Shown here: one piece after another, positions 42,596-63,545 of the stretch | Numbering within the stretch: the stretch's first letter is position 1 | Layout of the letters: each line of letters opens with the position of its first letter | NCBI GenBank assembly: GCA_040757695.1 | Contig: JBFLWK010000006.1 | Coordinates: forward strand, 1-64,000 | Direction of reading: 5' to 3' | Origin: Elusimicrobiota bacterium | Lineage (GTDB): Bacteria; Elusimicrobiota; UBA8919 | DNA length: 64,000 nucleotides | The notes under the pieces: generated by a model | What the model saw: only the letters and a program-made list of their open reading frames with translations | What the model was told of the DNA's origin: nothing | Database searches by the model: none | Program-made: the position numbers and the translations under genes

Positions 42596-43735
42596 TCATA
42601 ATCCTTCTTTTATTTTCTCAACAATATATTTTATCTTCTCCTCGTCCAGTTCCGGATACATCGGAAGCGACAGCGTTTCATCCTGTGCTTTTTCAGATAC
42701 AGGAAAATCACCTTTTTTGTAACCTGAACTTTCATAAACTTTCTGAAGATGCAGCGAACACGGATAATATATCTGACAGGCAACACCGTTTTCCAATAAA
42801 TACTTCTGGACTTTATCTCGGGTTGCTTTGTCTTTGAACCGAATCGTGTAATAATTAAACGAGTGTTTGCAATTTTCTGAAACCTTAGGCACAACCGCGG
42901 TATCTTTCAGTAATTCATTATATTTTTGTGCAACTTTATTTCGCATTTCAGTCCATTTATCAATATATCTTAATTTTACCGAAAGAATCGCTGACTGAAT
43001 TGTATCCAGTCGTGAATTAAACCCATCCAGTTCAGAAAAATACTTCTGTCTCTGCCCGTGATTCCGAAGCGCCTTTACATTTTCATAAATCTCTTGGTTA
43101 TTAGTAATTACCATCCCACCGTCGCCAAAACAACCGAGATTTTTTGCCGGAAAGAAACTGAAACAGCCGGCATCGCCGAAAGAACCAGTAAAACGATAAT
43201 CGGTAGATGGTAAACGGTATCTTGCAGAGAAAGATTGTGCGCAATCCTCAATATCCAGTAAATTATTTTCTTTAGCAATTTTTAGTATTTCCGACATCTC
43301 ACAGGGATGACCGTAAAGATGAACAGGCAAAATCGCTTTCACTTTTGCTTCTTGCTTCTTGCTTCTTGCTTCTATGCACTCTCTTATTTTCTTCGGGTCG
43401 ATATCATATGTTTCCAAATCAATATCCACGAAAACAGGCACACCGCCCGCTTGAACAATCGCCTCTGATGTTGCTATAAATGTAAATGGTGTTGTAATAA
43501 CTTCATCACCTTTTTTGATACCGCAAGCAAGAAGTGCAATCTTTATCGCATCCGTTCCGTTTGCAACACCAACGGCATATTTTGTGCCGCAGTATTTTGC
43601 GAATTCTTCTTCAAATTTTTTTACTTCGTCGCCTAAAATAAAATTTGTTTTGTTTAAAACATTCTTTATTGCAGCGTCAATTTCCGCTTTAAGCCCTTCG
43701 TAATTAGCCTTCAAATCAACCATCTGAATTTTCAT
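42596..43735 (-). CDS. DegT/DnrJ/EryC1 sugar aminotransferase (WlbC/WbpE-like)
   Basis: The 379-residue PLP enzyme has GVANGTDAIKIALLACGI, IEDCAQSFSA, and the lysine block FSFFPAKNLGCFGDGG. Near residue 125 it holds an extra EARSKKQEAK segment encoded by four perfect 7-base repeats. With the WbpD-like acetyltransferase it could form the 3-amination/acetylation pair of a diacetamido sugar; this is inference. Third DegT family member in the window. Confidence 0.9.
   Translation of the reverse strand: MKIQMVDLKANYEGLKAEIDAAIKNVLNKTNFILGDEVKKFEEEFAKYCGTKYAVGVANGTDAIKIALLACGIKKGDEVITTPFTFIATSEAIVQAGGVPVFVDIDLETYDIDPKKIRECIEARSKKQEAKVKAILPVHLYGHPCEMSEILKIAKENNLLDIEDCAQSFSARYRLPSTDYRFTGSFGDAGCFSFFPAKNLGCFGDGGMVITNNQEIYENVKALRNHGQRQKYFSELDGFNSRLDTIQSAILSVKLRYIDKWTEMRNKVAQKYNELLKDTAVVPKVSENCKHSFNYYTIRFKDKATRDKVQKYLLENGVACQIYYPCSLHLQKVYESSGYKKGDFPVSEKAQDETLSLPMYPELDEEKIKYIVEKIKEGL
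43346..43373. repeat. Heptamer array (TGCTTCT)4 inside an aminotransferase gene
   Basis: Four perfect tandem copies of a 7-base unit, encoding EARSKKQEA in a surface loop. Because 7 is not a multiple of 3, gain or loss of one or two units would shift the reading frame. Confidence 0.9.
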
Positions 43736-48092: not shown

Positions 48093-48800
48093 TTATAGCG
48101 GTCGGCGGGCACCACTGAACCTTTTTCTGTAGTATGTTTCGTTCAGCGAGTTTATGGTGACCTTTTTAGCACCGTAAGAGGCATGGATAAATTCATCATT
48201 ACCGATATAAAGCCCGACATGGTTTATTCTTGACCGATACGGATATTTTCTAAAAAAAACCAAATCGCCTGGTATCAGTTCATCCCGTTTTATTTTCTTG
48301 CCCATCTTAAATTGAAGCCGTGATGTTCTCGGCAAAATCGTCCCTAACGAGCTGTAAATCATCTGCATAAAATACGAGCAATCAATTCCTTTCTCAATAT
48401 CTGTACCGCCGTATCTATATGAGACACCTAAAAAATCAAAAGACAAACTTATCAACTCATTAAGTACCTCGTCTGAAATATCTGTATCCGTCTCTTCAAC
48501 TTCAGCAAGTTTATCAGGATTGAACTCGTCCACAAAACCTGCTGATATATTCTCTTCTGCTAACAATTTTGCGATTACAAACTCCACTGTTTCTTTTTGT
48601 TCATATGGACCGACAATAATTTTGTAGTAGCCGTTAGAACTTAAAATTACTGGATAGTTATGGCTGGCGAGATATAACTGATGTGTTATTGCTTCATCCT
48701 TATCTTTGAAAAGTCCTGCTTGGATGAAATATTCGCTGTAAAGGCAGGTAAAAGGTAAAAGGTAAAAGGTAAAAGGTAAAAGGTAAAAAAATTTTTTCAT
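48093..48800 (-). CDS. NlpC/P60 cell-wall peptidase with SPOR-like domain
   Basis: The 235-residue protein has a signal peptide, an SPOR-like region (YFIQAGLFKDKDEAITHQLY, YYKIIVGPY) that would bind denuded peptidoglycan, and NlpC/P60 with catalytic Cys in GIDCSYFMQ, His in NHVGLYIG and a third polar residue in FIHAS. It cleaves peptide stems in the periplasm. The signal peptide core, FYLLPFT repeated twice, is written by six perfect GGTAAAA heptamers. Confidence 0.87.
   Translation of the reverse strand: MKKFFYLLPFTFYLLPFTCLYSEYFIQAGLFKDKDEAITHQLYLASHNYPVILSSNGYYKIIVGPYEQKETVEFVIAKLLAEENISAGFVDEFNPDKLAEVEETDTDISDEVLNELISLSFDFLGVSYRYGGTDIEKGIDCSYFMQMIYSSLGTILPRTSRLQFKMGKKIKRDELIPGDLVFFRKYPYRSRINHVGLYIGNDEFIHASYGAKKVTINSLNETYYRKRFSGARRPL
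48747..48788. repeat. Heptamer array (GGTAAAA)6 in the NlpC/P60 signal peptide
   Basis: Six perfect 7-base units, 42 bases, encoding 14 residues (FYLLPFT twice) of the hydrophobic signal core. The same unit and the same flank GTAAAGGCAGGTAAAA occur in the LysM gene at 49903. Confidence 0.92.
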
Positions 48801-49232: not shown

Positions 49233-49979
49233 TTACTGCGGTTGCTTTTTTATCATATCGCCAACCATCACAGGTTCCCGAGCCATTATTACCCTGCCTG
49301 TACAGGTTTCACTCTGTACATCTGTTGTGATTTCAAGCACACCTATCTTTCTTATAAGGTTACCAAGGTTTTCATTTGTTTCAGGGTGAATAATACTTCT
49401 GTCTTTTCTATAAATAGTATATCTGTCAAGCGCTTTTACATTCTGTTTTTTTCCTAAATCCAGAAAAACAATATCGCTCTGTCCGATAATTATTTTTCGG
49501 TCTTTTTCACCTGAAACATAACCGTCAAATTCCCAGTTCTCACCCGCAATAACGGAATCCTCTTCAGCTTTTTTAACAGGCGGCGCAGGTTCTTCTTTTT
49601 TAATAACCGGAGCGGGAGCAGGCGGTGCGGGAGATGTGGCTGCAAGAGTATCTGTAGAAACAGCAGGTTCTTCTTTTTGGGTTTCAGCCGTTACAACTGT
49701 ATCTTCCACTTCTACAGGAATAACTAATTCATCGCCTGGAAATATCCAATGTGGATTCTTGATAAATTTGTTGTAGGAATGAATTTTTTTCCATTGCAAA
49801 TAATCGTTGTAAAACTTCTGTGCTATACTGGATAGCGTATCGCCATTAACAACAGTATAAACCTTTAACTGCTGTTTAGCATAAAGACAGGTAGTAAAGG
49901 CAGGTAAAAGGTAAAAGGTAAAAGGTAAAAATATAGAAATAAGTAAAGGCAAACCTAACCATCTAGTTTTCTTTTTCAT
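49233..49979 (-). CDS. LysM-domain envelope protein
   Basis: About 248 residues. A signal peptide (with FLPFTFYLLPAF encoded by four GGTAAAA heptamers) precedes a LysM domain (YTVVNGDTLSSIAQKFY, IFPGDELVIP) that binds peptidoglycan. A Pro/Ala/Glu-rich linker and a C-terminal beta-rich domain (DIVFLDLGKKQNVKALDRYTIYR) resembling FlgT/LysM-associated modules follow. ATG 49979 is selected for the GGGGG ribosome site; longer starts lie inside the promoter. Confidence 0.85.
   Translation of the reverse strand: MKKKTRWLGLPLLISIFLPFTFYLLPAFTTCLYAKQQLKVYTVVNGDTLSSIAQKFYNDYLQWKKIHSYNKFIKNPHWIFPGDELVIPVEVEDTVVTAETQKEEPAVSTDTLAATSPAPPAPAPVIKKEEPAPPVKKAEEDSVIAGENWEFDGYVSGEKDRKIIIGQSDIVFLDLGKKQNVKALDRYTIYRKDRSIIHPETNENLGNLIRKIGVLEITTDVQSETCTGRVIMAREPVMVGDMIKKQPQ
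49903..49930. repeat. Heptamer array (GGTAAAA)4 in the LysM signal peptide
   Basis: Four perfect 7-base units encode part of the signal core (PFTFYLLP). Same unit and flanking GTAAAGGCA as the array at 48747. Confidence 0.92.
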
Positions 49980-58325: not shown

Positions 58326-58353
58326 ATTATACCAAAATTATCAGATTTGTCAA
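58326..58353 (-). promoter_or_regulatory. Promoter of htpX operon
   Basis: TTGACA (58348-58353), 16-base spacer, TATAAT (58326-58331) on the minus strand, overlapping the end of fmt. The leader of about 90 bases is made of imperfect AAATTC(C/T) and AAACTCT heptamers. Confidence 0.75.
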
Positions 58354-59312
58354 TATAATTTTTCGCCAATGGCAAGTTTATGACCTAACAGAAATGACCA
58401 TGCGGACATAACATTTTTTGAGGCAGGTTGGATGGTCTTAACGAGCAAGAACCCGGGGTTACACTTCACAACAAACCCGATATTTTTTGGAATTGAAACA
58501 ATAGAACCGGCAGGACAAGATTGAGAAATGGATAGATTGAAAGATGGCAAGATTTCTGCATCAATGATTTTTAAATTTTTCATTTTTAATTTTAGCATAG
58601 CGTCATTTTTAATTGCAGTATACGCATTTGGCCACGGCTTGGTGCCGCGGATTAAATTGTATATTTCATTTACTGGCTTGTCCCAGTTGATTTTACCATC
58701 TTCTTTTTTCAATGGTGGTGCATATGTTGGTGAACCTACCTGTGCAGCACCTTTTTCGCCAATTGCTACTTTTGACAATGTTTCGTCCAGAACTTGAATT
58801 GCAACCGGAATAAGTTTTTTTTGTAGTGATAAAGTATCGTCGTCTCTGCCGATTTCAATTTTTTTCTGAAAGATTATCTTGCCAGTATCAAGTCCTTCAT
58901 CCATAAAAAAACTACTTACACCTGTTTCTGACTCGCCGTTAATAATCGCCCACTGAATAGGCGCAGCACCTCTGTATTTAGGCAGAAGTGAAAAATGTAA
59001 ATTAACACACCCAAACGGAAAAATATCAAGCACTTCTTTTGGCAAAATTTTTCCGTAAGCAGTAACAATACCAAGTTGAGAGTTGACGGTTGACAGCTGA
59101 GTGATAAAATCTCTGTCGTTAAGAGATTCGGGTGTTATTACAGGAATATTTTTTTCTATTGCTATTTTTTTTATTGGAGATGGTATAAAATGAAAGTGTC
59201 TGCCTGACGGTTTATCACTGCGGGTAACTACACAGACAACATTTTTCTCTTTAAGCAAATGCTCAAAAATAGGCACAACATATTCAGGTGTACCAAAAAA
59301 AATAATATCCAC
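58350..59312 (-). CDS. fmt: Methionyl-tRNA formyltransferase
   Basis: The 320-residue enzyme has IIFFGTPEYVVPIFEHLL, VTRSDKPSGR, AYGKILPKEVLDI, NLHFSLLPKYRGAAPIQWAI (the SLLP formyl-binding loop), GDDD-type VEIGRDDDTL and the C-terminal domain. It begins with GTG at 59312 (no ATG nearby), only 6 bases after the -10 box, so the mRNA is probably leaderless. A short AT-rich heptamer-like segment near 58565-58595 encodes LKLKMKNLK. Confidence 0.94.
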   Translation of the reverse strand: MDIIFFGTPEYVVPIFEHLLKEKNVVCVVTRSDKPSGRHFHFIPSPIKKIAIEKNIPVITPESLNDRDFITQLSTVNSQLGIVTAYGKILPKEVLDIFPFGCVNLHFSLLPKYRGAAPIQWAIINGESETGVSSFFMDEGLDTGKIIFQKKIEIGRDDDTLSLQKKLIPVAIQVLDETLSKVAIGEKGAAQVGSPTYAPPLKKEDGKINWDKPVNEIYNLIRGTKPWPNAYTAIKNDAMLKLKMKNLKIIDAEILPSFNLSISQSCPAGSIVSIPKNIGFVVKCNPGFLLVKTIQPASKNVMSAWSFLLGHKLAIGEKLY

Positions 59313-59318
59313 TTAAAA

Positions 59319-59347
59319 ATTATACAAAAATCTAAAAAAAATTGCAA
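59319..59347 (-). promoter_or_regulatory. Leaderless promoter of fmt
   Basis: TTGCAA (59342-59347), 17 bases, TATAAT (59319-59324), then TTTTAA and the GTG start codon. The predicted transcription start coincides with the G of GTG. Same -35 variant as the NSS transporter promoter. Confidence 0.75.
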
Positions 59348-59386
59348 TAAAAAAATTTTTGGGAGAAGGGGGGATGGGGTGTAAAA

Positions 59387-59488
59387 TTATTCCAGTTTGT
59401 TGAACAGGCGAGTGAGTAGTGCCTTGACGCAATCTTCGGCGGGTTCCGGGGTAAGCGCTGCGAGTGTTTCACGGTCAGTATAAATTAC
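59387..59488 (-). pseudogene. GC-rich gene fragment of unknown origin
   Basis: On the minus strand the end of a frame reads IYTDRETLAALTPEPAEDC then VKALLTRLFNKLE and stop. Composition is clearly more GC-rich than its neighbours and looks like a real protein C-terminus, but I do not recognise it. It joins directly to the AAAACCG array, inside which the frame becomes low-complexity. Probably the tail of a decayed, transferred gene. Confidence 0.4.
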
Positions 59489-59700
59489 AAAACCGCAAAA
59501 CCGTGCCAAAAACCGAAAACCGCAAAAACCGAAAACCGGAAAACCGTGGGAAAACCGCAAAACCGCGCAAAACCGCAAAAACCGAAAAAACCGAAAAAAC
59601 CGGAAAAACCGCGAAAAACCGGAAAAACCGGGAAAAACCGTGCCAGAAAAACCGTGGAAAAACCGGAAAAACCGTGAAAAACCGTCAAAAACCGTGCCAG
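59489..59700. repeat. AAAACCG-unit degenerate tandem array
   Basis: About 22 tandem units of A(4-6)CCG followed by 0-6 variable bases (C, G, TG, GG, TGCCAG). The plus strand is nearly free of T and the minus strand reads (C)GGTTTTT. Unit length ranges from 7 to 14 bases. No matching spacers or direct-repeat regularity as in CRISPR. Both strands can be translated only into low-complexity sequence (Lys/Thr/Asn/Arg-rich on plus, Phe/Gly-rich on minus). Confidence 0.9.
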
Positions 59701-59941
59701 ACTTGAAATTTTCAAATTTTTTGAGACATCATACTGTAGCCACTTGTAGCCGAGTTTCAAATTTATAATTTGTAGGCGTGAACTTTCAGTTTACGGCATT
59801 ACGACTACTCAGTATTTTCAGTGACTTCAGTGGCATTCATCTTTCTCTAAATTCCAAATTTCTCCGAACTCCAAATCCTAAATTTTCAATTAGACCATTT
59901 GGGCTAATTGAAAAACCAAAAATTACCGACAAGCAAAATTC
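59701..59941. other. Non-coding spacer
   Basis: No gene seen. It contains a CCACTGAA-family half arm near 59811-59835, AAATTCC-like heptamers near 59845-59885, and an imperfect hairpin CAATTAG-A-CC...GG-G-CTAATTG near 59886-59910. Confidence 0.5.
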
Positions 59942-59965
59942 AAATGTAAGCATTTGCTTACATTT
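59942..59965. repeat. Perfect palindrome AAATGTAAGCA-TT-TGCTTACATTT
   Basis: Eleven-base arms with a two-base loop, the same build as the 56401-56426 palindrome (arms, two-base centre, GCA/TGC at the core). Lies just downstream of the def terminator. Confidence 0.8.
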
Positions 59966-59972
59966 TGATTCC

Positions 59973-60002
59973 AAAAAGAAAAAGCTCCAACAAATCGGAG
60001 CT
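59973..60002 (-). terminator. Rho-independent terminator of the rsfS-argS-HEAT-def operon
   Basis: On the minus strand AGCTCC-GATTTGTT-GGAGCT is followed by TTTTTCTTTTT. A six-base stem with an eight-base loop and T-run, about 150 bases after the def stop codon and before the fmt promoter. Confidence 0.8.
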
Positions 60003-60007
60003 ACTAC

Positions 60008-60045
60008 AATTGGTAATAACGAATTTACATTCGCCATTACCAATT
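60008..60045. repeat. Long hairpin AATTGGTAAT...ATTACCAATT
   Basis: A ten-base stem with an inner GAAT/ATTC stem, immediately upstream (in the minus direction) of the terminator hairpin. It may support termination or mRNA 3' stability. Confidence 0.65.
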
Positions 60046-60149
60046 TTACATTTTTAATTTTTAATTTTAAATTGTAGTTTCTACCCACCCCACGAAAATT
60101 TCTGAGTTATTAACAGAGGCAACATCTATGGATTCCGTGCTTCTGTGGC

Positions 60150-60659
60150 TTATTTGTTATGCCCGAGGCAGAAATGAAAATACTTTCGTTTGAGTTGCCA
60201 TTTTTTTAATAGATTCACTCTATCAAAAAACACGATACCATTTAAGTGGTCAATCTCGTGTTGAAAAACTCGTGCCAGCAGTCCTTCAACTTCTATTTTC
60301 AATTCTTTCTCGTCAGGTGTTATACCGTAGACGACAATTTTTTCAGCTCGTTTTATTTTTGTTGTGATACCCGGGAATGACAGGCATCCTTCTTCTAAAT
60401 AACAATTCCCATCAGCAGATAATCTTTCAGGATTAAACAACACGACTGGTTGGGGCTTACCGTCGGGCTTTATGTCTGCTACAAAAACGCTTGATAATTC
60501 GCCAACCTGATTCGCGGCAAGCCCGATTCCGTTAAAAAAATACATCGTTTCAAGCATATTTCTGGATAGTTTTATCAGTTTGCCGTTAAGGAGGTTGATT
60601 TTCTCTGTTTTGGTTTTAAGTATTTTTTCCGGATATTTTTTTATTTGGAGAATAGCCAT
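60150..60659 (-). CDS. def: Peptide deformylase
   Basis: The 169-residue protein has all three metal/active-site motifs: GIGLAANQVG, EGCLSFPG and FQHEIDHLNG. It removes the formyl group from new proteins, pairing functionally with fmt. Separated from fmt by a terminator and an 840-base repeat region rather than adjacent as in many bacteria. Confidence 0.95.
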   Translation of the reverse strand: MAILQIKKYPEKILKTKTEKINLLNGKLIKLSRNMLETMYFFNGIGLAANQVGELSSVFVADIKPDGKPQPVVLFNPERLSADGNCYLEEGCLSFPGITTKIKRAEKIVVYGITPDEKELKIEVEGLLARVFQHEIDHLNGIVFFDRVNLLKKWQLKRKYFHFCLGHNK

Positions 60660-60704: not shown

Positions 60705-61892
60705 CTATTTACTTAATTGTTTTTTGGCTTTCTGTATCATATCTTTTGATTTTTTATGGTTCGGGTCAAGTTTTAAGACCTCTTCCCATTCTGCGATTGC
60801 TTTCTCATATTCCCGTTTCCGATACAGATTCACTCCTGCAGTATAGTGCGAACTCATCCGGTTAAGTTTTTCTTGTTGCGAACTTTCTGGTGTTGCAGAT
60901 GGTTCAGCAGATGGCTGTTGTGGTGTTGCTGCCGGCTGGACAGTTTCAGCCGGTGGAGATGAAGGCGTAGGTGTAGGTGTAACAGGTGGCGGCGAGGGGG
61001 GGTGAACAATTCCTTTTTTTGTACGGTTTTTTTCAAGAATTTTTATGATTGCTTCTTTGAATTTGCTTTTTTGCTCTTCGTCTAATTTTTCTAAAATTTC
61101 TACGAGTGATGGGATTGCAGTGTTATCACCGATTGTAACAAGTGCGTCTGCAACCGCTTCATATACTGTGATATGCCGTTTCTGACTCAAAACAGGTGTT
61201 AGTAAAGGTATTGCGTTTTTGTCGCCAATCGCACCCAGAACATTTATTGCAGCAATTGCAACTTCATCTTTTTTATCACAAACCGCAGGTGATAACGCAC
61301 GAATAGCATCAAGACCGCCGATATTTCCGATAGCATAGATAGTAGCGAGCCGAACCATTATATTTTTATCAGTTAGCAGATGTGAAATAGATTGGATTAC
61401 AGAAGCACCTGCCCCCCCACCTCCCACTTCGCTCTTGCTGATTACACCGAGCACATTTACGGCTGAAATTTTTACATCCGGTTTTTTGTCTTTTGTCGCT
61501 TCAATAAGCGGTCCTATTGCTGTTTTATTGCCTGCCTCGCCTTTTTGTGCTAATCCATCAACTGCTTTAAGCCGAACCTCTTTTTTAATATCTCGGATTG
61601 CAACTGCGAGTGCACTGACTGCGGAATCATCCTGGATTTTAGAAAGTGCTTCAACAACTGCTAACCGCACATTAACACTTTTGTCGTTTAATACATCGCG
61701 TAATGGTGCGACAAAATCTGATTTCCCGATTTCACCGAGCGACTTTGCGGATGAGATGCGGACTGACTGCTTTTTGTCCTTTAACCCTTTGAGGTACTCC
61801 TGAACCATAAGTTCATCAGCATAGAGGCAGTGTAAAGTGTAAAGTGTAAAGTGTAAAGAAACTGCCAAAACCAAACCCAACCTCTTTTTCAT
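60705..61892 (-). CDS. HEAT-repeat and TPR envelope protein
   Basis: The 395-residue protein has a signal peptide (core encoded by AGTGTAA heptamers) and then about seven HEAT/PBS repeats (SVRISSAKSLGEIGKSDFV, NVRLAVVEALSKIQDDSAV, MVRLATIYAIGNIGGLDAI). A Pro/Ser/Thr-rich linker (290-335) and a C-terminal TPR (YRKREYEKAIAEWEEVLKLDP) follow. Likely a periplasmic scaffold. A C7 run at about 61411 encodes GGGG. Confidence 0.85.
   Translation of the reverse strand: MKKRLGLVLAVSLHFTLYTLHCLYADELMVQEYLKGLKDKKQSVRISSAKSLGEIGKSDFVAPLRDVLNDKSVNVRLAVVEALSKIQDDSAVSALAVAIRDIKKEVRLKAVDGLAQKGEAGNKTAIGPLIEATKDKKPDVKISAVNVLGVISKSEVGGGGAGASVIQSISHLLTDKNIMVRLATIYAIGNIGGLDAIRALSPAVCDKKDEVAIAAINVLGAIGDKNAIPLLTPVLSQKRHITVYEAVADALVTIGDNTAIPSLVEILEKLDEEQKSKFKEAIIKILEKNRTKKGIVHPPSPPPVTPTPTPSSPPAETVQPAATPQQPSAEPSATPESSQQEKLNRMSSHYTAGVNLYRKREYEKAIAEWEEVLKLDPNHKKSKDMIQKAKKQLSK
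61829..61856. repeat. Heptamer array (AGTGTAA)4 in the HEAT protein signal peptide
   Basis: Four perfect 7-base units encode the hydrophobic signal core HFTLYTLH. Flank GGCAG precedes it as in the two GGTAAAA arrays. Confidence 0.9.
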
Positions 61893-61913: not shown

Positions 61914-63545
61914 TCACATTCTTTCTGGAGCCGAAACTCCGAGAATATACAAGCCGTTTTTGAGCACAGTTTTGACTGCCTGACATAACTGGAGTCGGGC
62001 AGAAGTTAATTGTGCATTCGCTGTTATTATTCTTACTTTATTATAGTAAAAATGGAACAAAGATGCAAGTGTCTGCAGATATTTTGTTAAATAATGCGGC
62101 GCATAGTTTCTGGCAGCCAATTCAATAATATCCTCAAAATACAAAATCTGTTTTATCAGTTGGCGTTCTTCTTGCAGTTTCAAGTTTTCTAATTTGGAAT
62201 TTGGAATTTGGAATTTGGAATTTGCTTTTTCTGCTTCTCTGAATATAGAACAGATTCTTGCGTGTGCATACTGAACATAATATACTGGATTTTCAGGCGC
62301 TTGTTTTTTGGCTAAGTCCAAATCAAAATCCAAGTGGGCTTCCATATGTCGCATCAGATAAAAAAACCTTACCGCATCTACACCGATTTCATCAATAAGT
62401 TGGGACAGTGTTATGTAATTCGCTTTCCTTGTAGACATTTTCACCTGTTTACCCGAAGATGTTAGTGTTACAAATTGATATATTTTAACTACTATTTTTG
62501 ATGTATCATATCCCAGCACTTTTAATGCCGCAATCACATCCGGATATGTATCTTGATGGTCGCACCCGAACAGGTCAATTAAAATATCGTAATCCCTTTC
62601 ATATTTTTTCCTGTGATATGCTATATCCGTTACTCTGTATGTCGGTTCCTTATCCGTAGTGGAACGGAGTAAAACTTTGTCTTTTGATGCACCAAATTCC
62701 GTTGACTTGAACCATAACGCCCCCTCTTTCTCATATGTATAACCTGTAGAATTCAAATCGCTTATTGTTTTTTTTATATCACCTGTCTGGTAAAGAGAAC
62801 TCTCATTAAAATAACTGTCAAATACCACGCCCATATTTTTGAGGTCTTTTTTTATACCAGCAAAACAATATTCAATAGCCACATTTTTGAAATAATCCAA
62901 ATCCTTTTCGGTCAGATTATCGCCTTTTTCCAGACGGCATTTTTGTGCTATTTCTTTAATATATTCCCCTTGATAGTGGTCTTCCAAAAAACTTACATTT
63001 TCGCCTATAAGTTGTCTGTATCTCAAATAAACCGAATTTGCCAGTATTCCCATTTGAAGACCGGCGTCATTGAAATAATACTCCCTAGTAACCTTACAAC
63101 CCAAACTTTCAAGAATCCTGGAAATAGAATCTCCTATCACAGTTCCACGTCCATGTCCAACGGTAAGCGGTCCTGTAGGGTTGGCTGAAACGAATTCAAC
63201 AAGAATCTTTTTATTTTTTAGAAAACCGGTTTTACCGAAATTATCTGCCTGGATAATTGCCCTTTTAAGTTGTTCAAAAAGAAAATCGTCTGACAAAATT
63301 ATATTTATGAAGCCGGATTGAAATTTAGCATCCGCGATAATTTTTTCTTTTTTCAGTTTTTCTATTATTGGAGCAGCGAGTTGAGATGGATTTTTTTTAA
63401 GAATTTTAGAAAGCAACAATGCTATATTTGTTGATACATCGGCTGTTATAGTAGCTGGTGGTAATTCCACTGAATAGCTTAGACCATTGATAATTTTTAA
63501 CTCAGTTAATGCGGTATCAATTATTTTTTTTATTTCGTTTAACAT
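61914..63545 (-). CDS. argS: Arginyl-tRNA synthetase
   Basis: The 543-residue class I synthetase has an N-terminal Add-1 domain, the HIGH-equivalent NPTGPLTVGHGRG, GCDHQDTYP, the KMSKS-equivalent VKMSTRKANY, and the C-terminal DALR anticodon domain. The segment FQIPNSKLENL before the DALR domain is encoded by four TTTGGAA heptamers, an insertion in a linker. Confidence 0.95.
   Translation of the reverse strand: MLNEIKKIIDTALTELKIINGLSYSVELPPATITADVSTNIALLLSKILKKNPSQLAAPIIEKLKKEKIIADAKFQSGFINIILSDDFLFEQLKRAIIQADNFGKTGFLKNKKILVEFVSANPTGPLTVGHGRGTVIGDSISRILESLGCKVTREYYFNDAGLQMGILANSVYLRYRQLIGENVSFLEDHYQGEYIKEIAQKCRLEKGDNLTEKDLDYFKNVAIEYCFAGIKKDLKNMGVVFDSYFNESSLYQTGDIKKTISDLNSTGYTYEKEGALWFKSTEFGASKDKVLLRSTTDKEPTYRVTDIAYHRKKYERDYDILIDLFGCDHQDTYPDVIAALKVLGYDTSKIVVKIYQFVTLTSSGKQVKMSTRKANYITLSQLIDEIGVDAVRFFYLMRHMEAHLDFDLDLAKKQAPENPVYYVQYAHARICSIFREAEKANSKFQIPNSKLENLKLQEERQLIKQILYFEDIIELAARNYAPHYLTKYLQTLASLFHFYYNKVRIITANAQLTSARLQLCQAVKTVLKNGLYILGVSAPERM
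62193..62220. repeat. Heptamer array (TTTGGAA)4 inside argS
   Basis: Four perfect 7-base units, minus strand AAATTCC, in the linker before the anticodon-binding domain; encodes KFQIPNSK. The same AAATTCC unit occurs between genes near 54330, 58255 and 59850. Confidence 0.92.

Follow-up and report, generated by a model that had tools for sequence, protein, structure and literature searches.

TIRtrons, or TIRYTs, are a known and poorly studied family of mobile elements. In two descriptions (PMC3733652, PMC6006769) they combine a Y1 HUH transposase, which has a DnaA_C-like C-terminus, with inverted tips and dispersed solo tips, as do the elements analysed here. They are flanked by terminal inverted repeats (TIRs), some of which share the motif GGGGWSAS and some of which are dispersed as repeat families, according to PMC3733652. 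TnpAY1 subclass 2.1 probably corresponds to TIRYTs according to PMC6006769, and Bac_DnaA_C is one of the HTH types found in TnpAY1 subgroup 2.1.2. Relatives have tips that read GGGGAC or GGGGTCAG; the tip described here begins with GTGCCAG and not with GGGGWSAS. The accessible parts of both descriptions (PMC3733652, PMC6006769) present TIRs as single, dimeric or grouped, and private arrays templated by the flank go unmentioned in them. Such arrays, which we describe below, are a new feature of the family.

The REP sequences and BIMEs, with the RAYT (TnpAREP) transposases, share with our elements a related transposase superfamily, dispersed non-autonomous ends and, in some cases, tandem clusters. 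The tip described here, however, lacks a GTAG or GTGG foot and a strong hairpin and forms a weak palindrome only, and its units consist of flank and truncated tip instead of whole REPs, which agrees with the sequence-only reading of the locus that this is not a REP cluster. IS200/IS605 elements use the same Y1 HUH chemistry, but have subterminal hairpins and no TIRs, and we know of no such arrays at their ends. Bacterial minisatellites and telomerase-like addition are comparable in the way they work only, in that short copied units are added serially at one end; in contrast, the template here is local flank and tip, the unit length varies and no RNA template is implied.

The array between def and fmt

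The window, i.e. the whole stretch that was analysed, comprises 64,000 nucleotides of an Elusimicrobiota bacterium (GCA_040757695.1, contig JBFLWK010000006.1, positions 1 to 64,000). Its features in the def-fmt region are:

58350-59312, minus strand: fmt, methionyl-tRNA formyltransferase (open reading frame; homologues beside def in relatives)
59313-60149, no strand assigned: mobile and repeat debris, 837 bp, between def and fmt
59319-59347, minus strand: promoter-like site of fmt, TTGCAA-17-TATAAT
59388-59484, minus strand: remnant of an LpoB/CsgG-like gene, its truncated 3' end (paralogues at C28 and C77, 83-87% identical)
59489-59495, plus strand: flank-side starting unit, the tail of the flank F (...AATTACAAAACCG) and source of the first array unit
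59496-59694, plus strand: array of 21 units, each a tip prefix (none, TG, TGCCA or TGCCAGA) followed by the tail of the preceding unit
59694-59715, plus strand: element tip (terminal inverted repeat) GTGCCAGACTTGAAATTTTCAA, one of 19 copies in the genome
59849-59967, minus strand: part of a second interspersed palindromic repeat family (more than 20 genome copies, mostly 80-97% identical)
60150-60659, minus strand: def, peptide deformylase (open reading frame)

Direct reading of 59489-59694 finds 22 exact copies of AAAACCG, all on the plus strand, where the sequence-only reading had counted about 22 degenerate units; about 12 would be expected on both strands of the whole 64 kb. The strand asymmetry claimed there is real (AT skew 0.87 over 59500-59699), and the position is right as well, with the fmt promoter on one side and terminator-like stems at about 59942-60002 on the other. 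Tandem Repeats Finder (TRF) scores the array at 152-154 with periods of 9 and 19. A search of the genome and its sister genomes for such arrays, which that reading had proposed, returned the window array as the sole site of a triple-unit AAAACCG pattern in the 2.89-Mb genome (reversed control 0); the pattern matched in 6 of 60 related genomes including the window's own, the other five having one or two scattered matches each. The array is also not a CRISPR, as had been stated, because its units of 7-14 nt have no regular spacers (a CRISPR would have repeats of about 24-48 nt and unique spacers), and an Rfam search of the window matched no family. Perfect 7-base tandem repeats occur elsewhere in the window (43345-43373, 48746-48788, 49902-49930, 61829-61858 and 62191-62224), with the units TTGCTTC, AGGTAAA (twice), AGTGTAA and AATTTGG; they are unrelated in sequence to the AAAACCG array. 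A period of 7 is oddly common.

Two features had been overlooked: on its right side the array passes into an interspersed repeat, its last base (59694) being at once the opening G of the element tip, and the units hold truncated copies of that tip, namely TG, TGCCA and TGCCAGA. The array is thus rightly held not to be a simple heptamer minisatellite, since its units carry prefixes of the neighbouring tip and are not one in-register unit made without an outside template. The first spacer, CAA, equals the three bases that precede the AACCG anchor. The GC-rich gene fragment noticed beside the array does exist and can now be named as the truncated tail of the multi-copy LpoB/CsgG-like gene (59388-59484).

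The gap between def and fmt measures 0-5 nt in four of six relatives, about 107-145 nt in the other two and 837 bp here, and none of the six intervals in the relatives holds a comparable insert. When 59320-60170 is searched as DNA against the own genome, the region resolves into a mosaic of interspersed repeats: the truncated LpoB/CsgG-like tail, the array, a solo tip and the other interspersed palindromic repeat, whose palindromes read CAATTAGACCATTTGGGCTAATTG and AAATGTAAGCATTTGCTTACATTT. The tip copy in the window is a solo end and has no transposase, so that the array is probably a fossil without a function of its own; nothing at the def-fmt site points to one.

The element and its sister copies

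The tip motif GTGCCAGACTTGAAATTTTCAA occurs in 19 copies in the genome at up to three mismatches (reversed control 0), and most of these bear an array of their own directly outside the tip when the copies are read in one orientation. The units differ by locus: AAAACCG in the window, and elsewhere AAAACTG, AGAACTG, GGGAACTG, CAAACTG, GAAATGG and GCATACCG. The tip copies L090 and L102 have no added unit, and at C147 two neighbouring tips share one continuous array.

A complete element is found at C133, where the tip is followed by an ORF of 316 aa and, 1008 bp downstream, by a perfect 22-bp inverted tip; arrays stand outside both ends, the one at the right end being a single added unit. The protein matches Y1_Tnp (PF01797, E=9.4e-13) with the HUH motif in MPNHFHL, and its C-terminus matches Bac_DnaA_C (PF08299, E=6.7e-11) and the DnaA structure chain 2z4r (E=3.8e-7). 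Its Y motif reads YIHLNC against the class 2 Y---NP, with Y and N kept and P replaced. Judged by the two domains of this protein, the element matches the TIRYT/TIRtron type with a TnpAY1 of subclass 2.1. The tip is mostly [CT]GTGCCAG and the family-majority motif is GGGGWSAS, to which the tip is probably related; TIRYT left ends across the phylum grade from GGGGAC or GGGGTCAG through GTGTCAG to GTGCCAG. At other copies the tip is found joined to the 3' end of the transposase gene.

Among the 19 copies an inverted partner tip lies nearby at C133 and C9 only, so that activity in cis is unsupported at most tips. The C9 element (locus L088, C9:31583-31820) is two-ended, MITE-like and 236 bp long, with the same tips and no transposase. 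At C133 the trpD gene (L076 409-960) is broken at GATAAAACG by an array and the transposase element. Beyond the right end an unrelated esterase-like gene follows, so that a rearrangement has happened as well; trpD continues past this point in six relatives. The bases just before the array mismatch the intact homologue of trpD, and those before the window array mismatch the paralogues of the gene fragment. The first flank tail is therefore not always demonstrably the original target sequence.

How the units are built

A single rule describes most units: each consists of a truncated tip prefix of variable length (m), followed by an exact copy of the tail, i.e. the last 6-12 bases, of the preceding text. 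For counting, the element E was taken to begin with its second base (TGCCAGACTTG...), the five or six bases preceding E formed the anchor, and a unit was scored only on exact agreement in the anchored parse. The rule fits 117 of 165 units, compared to a mean of 64 and a maximum of 76 when the unit order was shuffled within arrays (1000 shuffles). If no tip prefix is allowed the number falls to 80, and with a shuffled tip prefix to 85 on average. In the window 14 of 21 units obey the rule exactly. Over all arrays, each of the 39 occurrences of TGCC inside units immediately follows the anchor. For the 48 units that are not explained exactly we assume later mutation, internal duplication or loss. 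Units in which m exceeds 4 occur at scattered places in the arrays; each of them was therefore made when its position adjoined E or was copied from such a unit.

Junctions, template and direction of growth

At 37 resolvable breakpoints the junction overlap is 0 in 21, 1 in 10, 2 in 4, 3 in 1 and 4 in 1, which is about what chance predicts; annealing by microhomology is therefore not needed. The flank recopied at resolvable junctions measures 6-12 nt, and the inner endpoint usually lies 0-15 nt inside the element, once at about 36 and once at about 328. The former event is found at C147 (m = 36) and has the same geometry; the latter, at C9 (m about 328), shares the left offset of the other events and led to a duplication of the beginning of ribD between two tips. 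This 334-bp tandem duplication of the 5' part of the gene occupies L075 2595-2960 (C9:33594-33960), and a longer reading frame of ribD follows its second copy.

Private variants of the tip identify the template. The tip of L101 is TGCCTG and its units carry TGCCTG; L103 has the tip TACCAG and one unit with TAC. At L091 TGTCAG appears in units 1 and 3, whereas units 4-11 have TGCC or TGCCAG and the present tip is TGCCAG; both L102 and a copy in the relative G006 have TGTCAG as their tip. Since private variants match their own arrays, the template is the resident tip, and an external template, be it RNA or another copy, is disfavoured. Because the older tip allele is found only at the far end of the L091 array, the oldest units lie farthest from the tip. 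The comparison of these tips and units establishes that growth is local and serial. Its direction is read from the variants in L091, L103 and L101; a neighbour-only test scarcely separates the two directions (89 vs 83).

Arrays of the same kind in other bacteria

A set of 62 TIRYT left ends, almost all from the phylum, was defined by a TIR-like motif and cleared by eye of off-target motif matches after inspection. Of these, 14 repeat the 7 bases before the tip within 40 nt, compared to 0.9% at control positions in the same sequences; without the filter by eye the count is 14 of 81 against 1.0%. At 16 of 23 loci with a repeated flank tail the last unit obeys the rule exactly.

Arrays or single units also occur at TIRYT ends in plasmid records of cultured hosts: Skermanella rosea, S. 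mucosa, Legionella adelaidensis, Pseudoalteromonas sp. THAF3 (right end) and Acetoanaerobium noterae (L247, L249, L251, L253 and L255 being the named records with arrays). The array of S. mucosa reads CACGCAAATG GGGTCAG CACGCAAATG GGGTCAGAGTCGATTCTT CACGCAAATG GGGTCAGAGTCGATTCTTGACCGCC. Upstream of the transposase L251 and L253 apparently represent one TIRYT locus in S. rosea and S. mucosa, with PemK/MazF and MazE-like genes and a sulfotransferase as shared neighbours; the arrays differ, which suggests recent change. No array was seen at the TIRYT ends inspected in plasmid records of Sporomusa termitida, Iodobacter and Pseudomonas aeruginosa. The plasmid record of R. rubrum has one possible array: in NC_007641.1 (L248, about 1380-1430) the sequence GAGTAAAACGGAGTAAAACGGGGTCTGACCCC forms a unit that adjoins a palindromic TIR and lies at the right end, on its inner side. 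The two R. rubrum records do not differ at this site and reveal no strain polymorphism.

An assembly artefact, which the sequence-only reading had named as the finding that would undo it, is unlikely, because independent arrays in the genome obey one rule and closed plasmid records have the same architecture. The papers searched, which included none from subscription journals, yielded no report of arrays at TIRYT ends.

Origin of the arrays

Taken together, these comparisons establish that the units follow a rule and are specific to their locus, that the junctions lack microhomology, that copying is serial and local, and that arrays accompany TIRYT ends in other bacteria too. In our view it is rather probable that the array, a private minisatellite adjoining the outer edge of a TIRYT/TIRtron TIR, arose through tandem duplications across the junction of flank and tip by nicking, extension and religation. 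Each unit would represent a local tandem duplication that runs from 6-12 nt outside the tip to a variable point inside the element. The HUH transposase would nick one strand, the one that leads into the element, 6-12 nt before the tip. Synthesis from the 3'-OH would proceed for a short distance through the tip, and the 5' end, which stays covalently bound, would be joined again to the lengthened 3' end, adding one unit of flank tail and tip prefix; repeated cycles would build the array. HUH enzymes leave a 5'-phosphotyrosine and a free 3'-OH that is able to prime synthesis or to attack, and the E. coli TnpAREP cleaves between C and T and requires a 3' C on the attacking strand (PMC8266576). 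Searching the resolvable junctions yielded no shared dinucleotide at the putative nick site, unlike the C-T site of TnpAREP, and this counts against a nick.

Replication slippage would require no transposase: a polymerase stalls at the TIR, slips back and recopies, the tip being merely a stalling site. The 80 units that can be read as plain copies of the unit before them could have arisen in this way, as is expected once an array exists. We nevertheless regard slippage as an unlikely origin, because the resolvable tip-prefix events lack microhomology beyond chance, the palindrome of the tip is weak, and TIRYT ends in unrelated bacteria bear arrays roughly 20 times as often as control positions do. 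Blunt, homology-free junctions with variable far ends, and likewise the 334-bp event at C9, are what one would expect if a transposase-induced double-strand break at the tip were joined to the other sister, or if a staggered break were filled and sealed, either of which would duplicate the junction. Such end joining seems to us quite improbable, however, as the narrow left offset of 6-12 nt and the repeated use of one site favour a directed nick.

HUH transposases cut and paste single strands, and the tip fragments begin at the same base in 39 of 39 cases, so that short excised tip fragments might have been pasted repeatedly beside a resident tip. Yet the units carry the preceding local tail, which is not expected from fragments pasted from elsewhere, and private tip variants match the resident tip; we hold such serial insertion to be very improbable. 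Hardly credible is, finally, a functional binding or structural array that selection maintains at the fmt promoter. It would suit the strand asymmetry and the position upstream of fmt, but no other copy has this unit, the arrays occupy unrelated sites including the inside of genes, and relatives have no comparable insert. Nothing speaks for the binding array or for the structure-forming, G-rich element that the sequence-only reading had considered, since units differ from copy to copy and no unit sequence is conserved. Its third suggestion, debris of a mobile element, was correct in so far as the array stands at the end of one; passive debris it is not, given a generative rule that is tied to the tip and recurs at most copies and in unrelated bacteria.

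Implications for TIRYT elements

With slightly more doubt than trust, we tentatively extend the nick-extend-religate reading to the family: in vivo, TIRYT transposases may repeatedly prime extension from a nick at the TIR tip and religate the ends, an activity previously undescribed, of which each element would keep a dated and directional record. If this is true, the arrays are direct genomic evidence that TIRYT enzymes act at TIR tips in vivo. They would then predict on which strand and where (6-12 nt outside the tip) the enzymes act, and by which chemistry, namely nicking, extension and religation. The same process would also provide mobile elements with a route to make new minisatellites from any DNA in which they land. 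A possible relevance to tandem BIME clusters is speculation. Should the reading hold, the arrays are a readable record of what the TIRYT family does to DNA.
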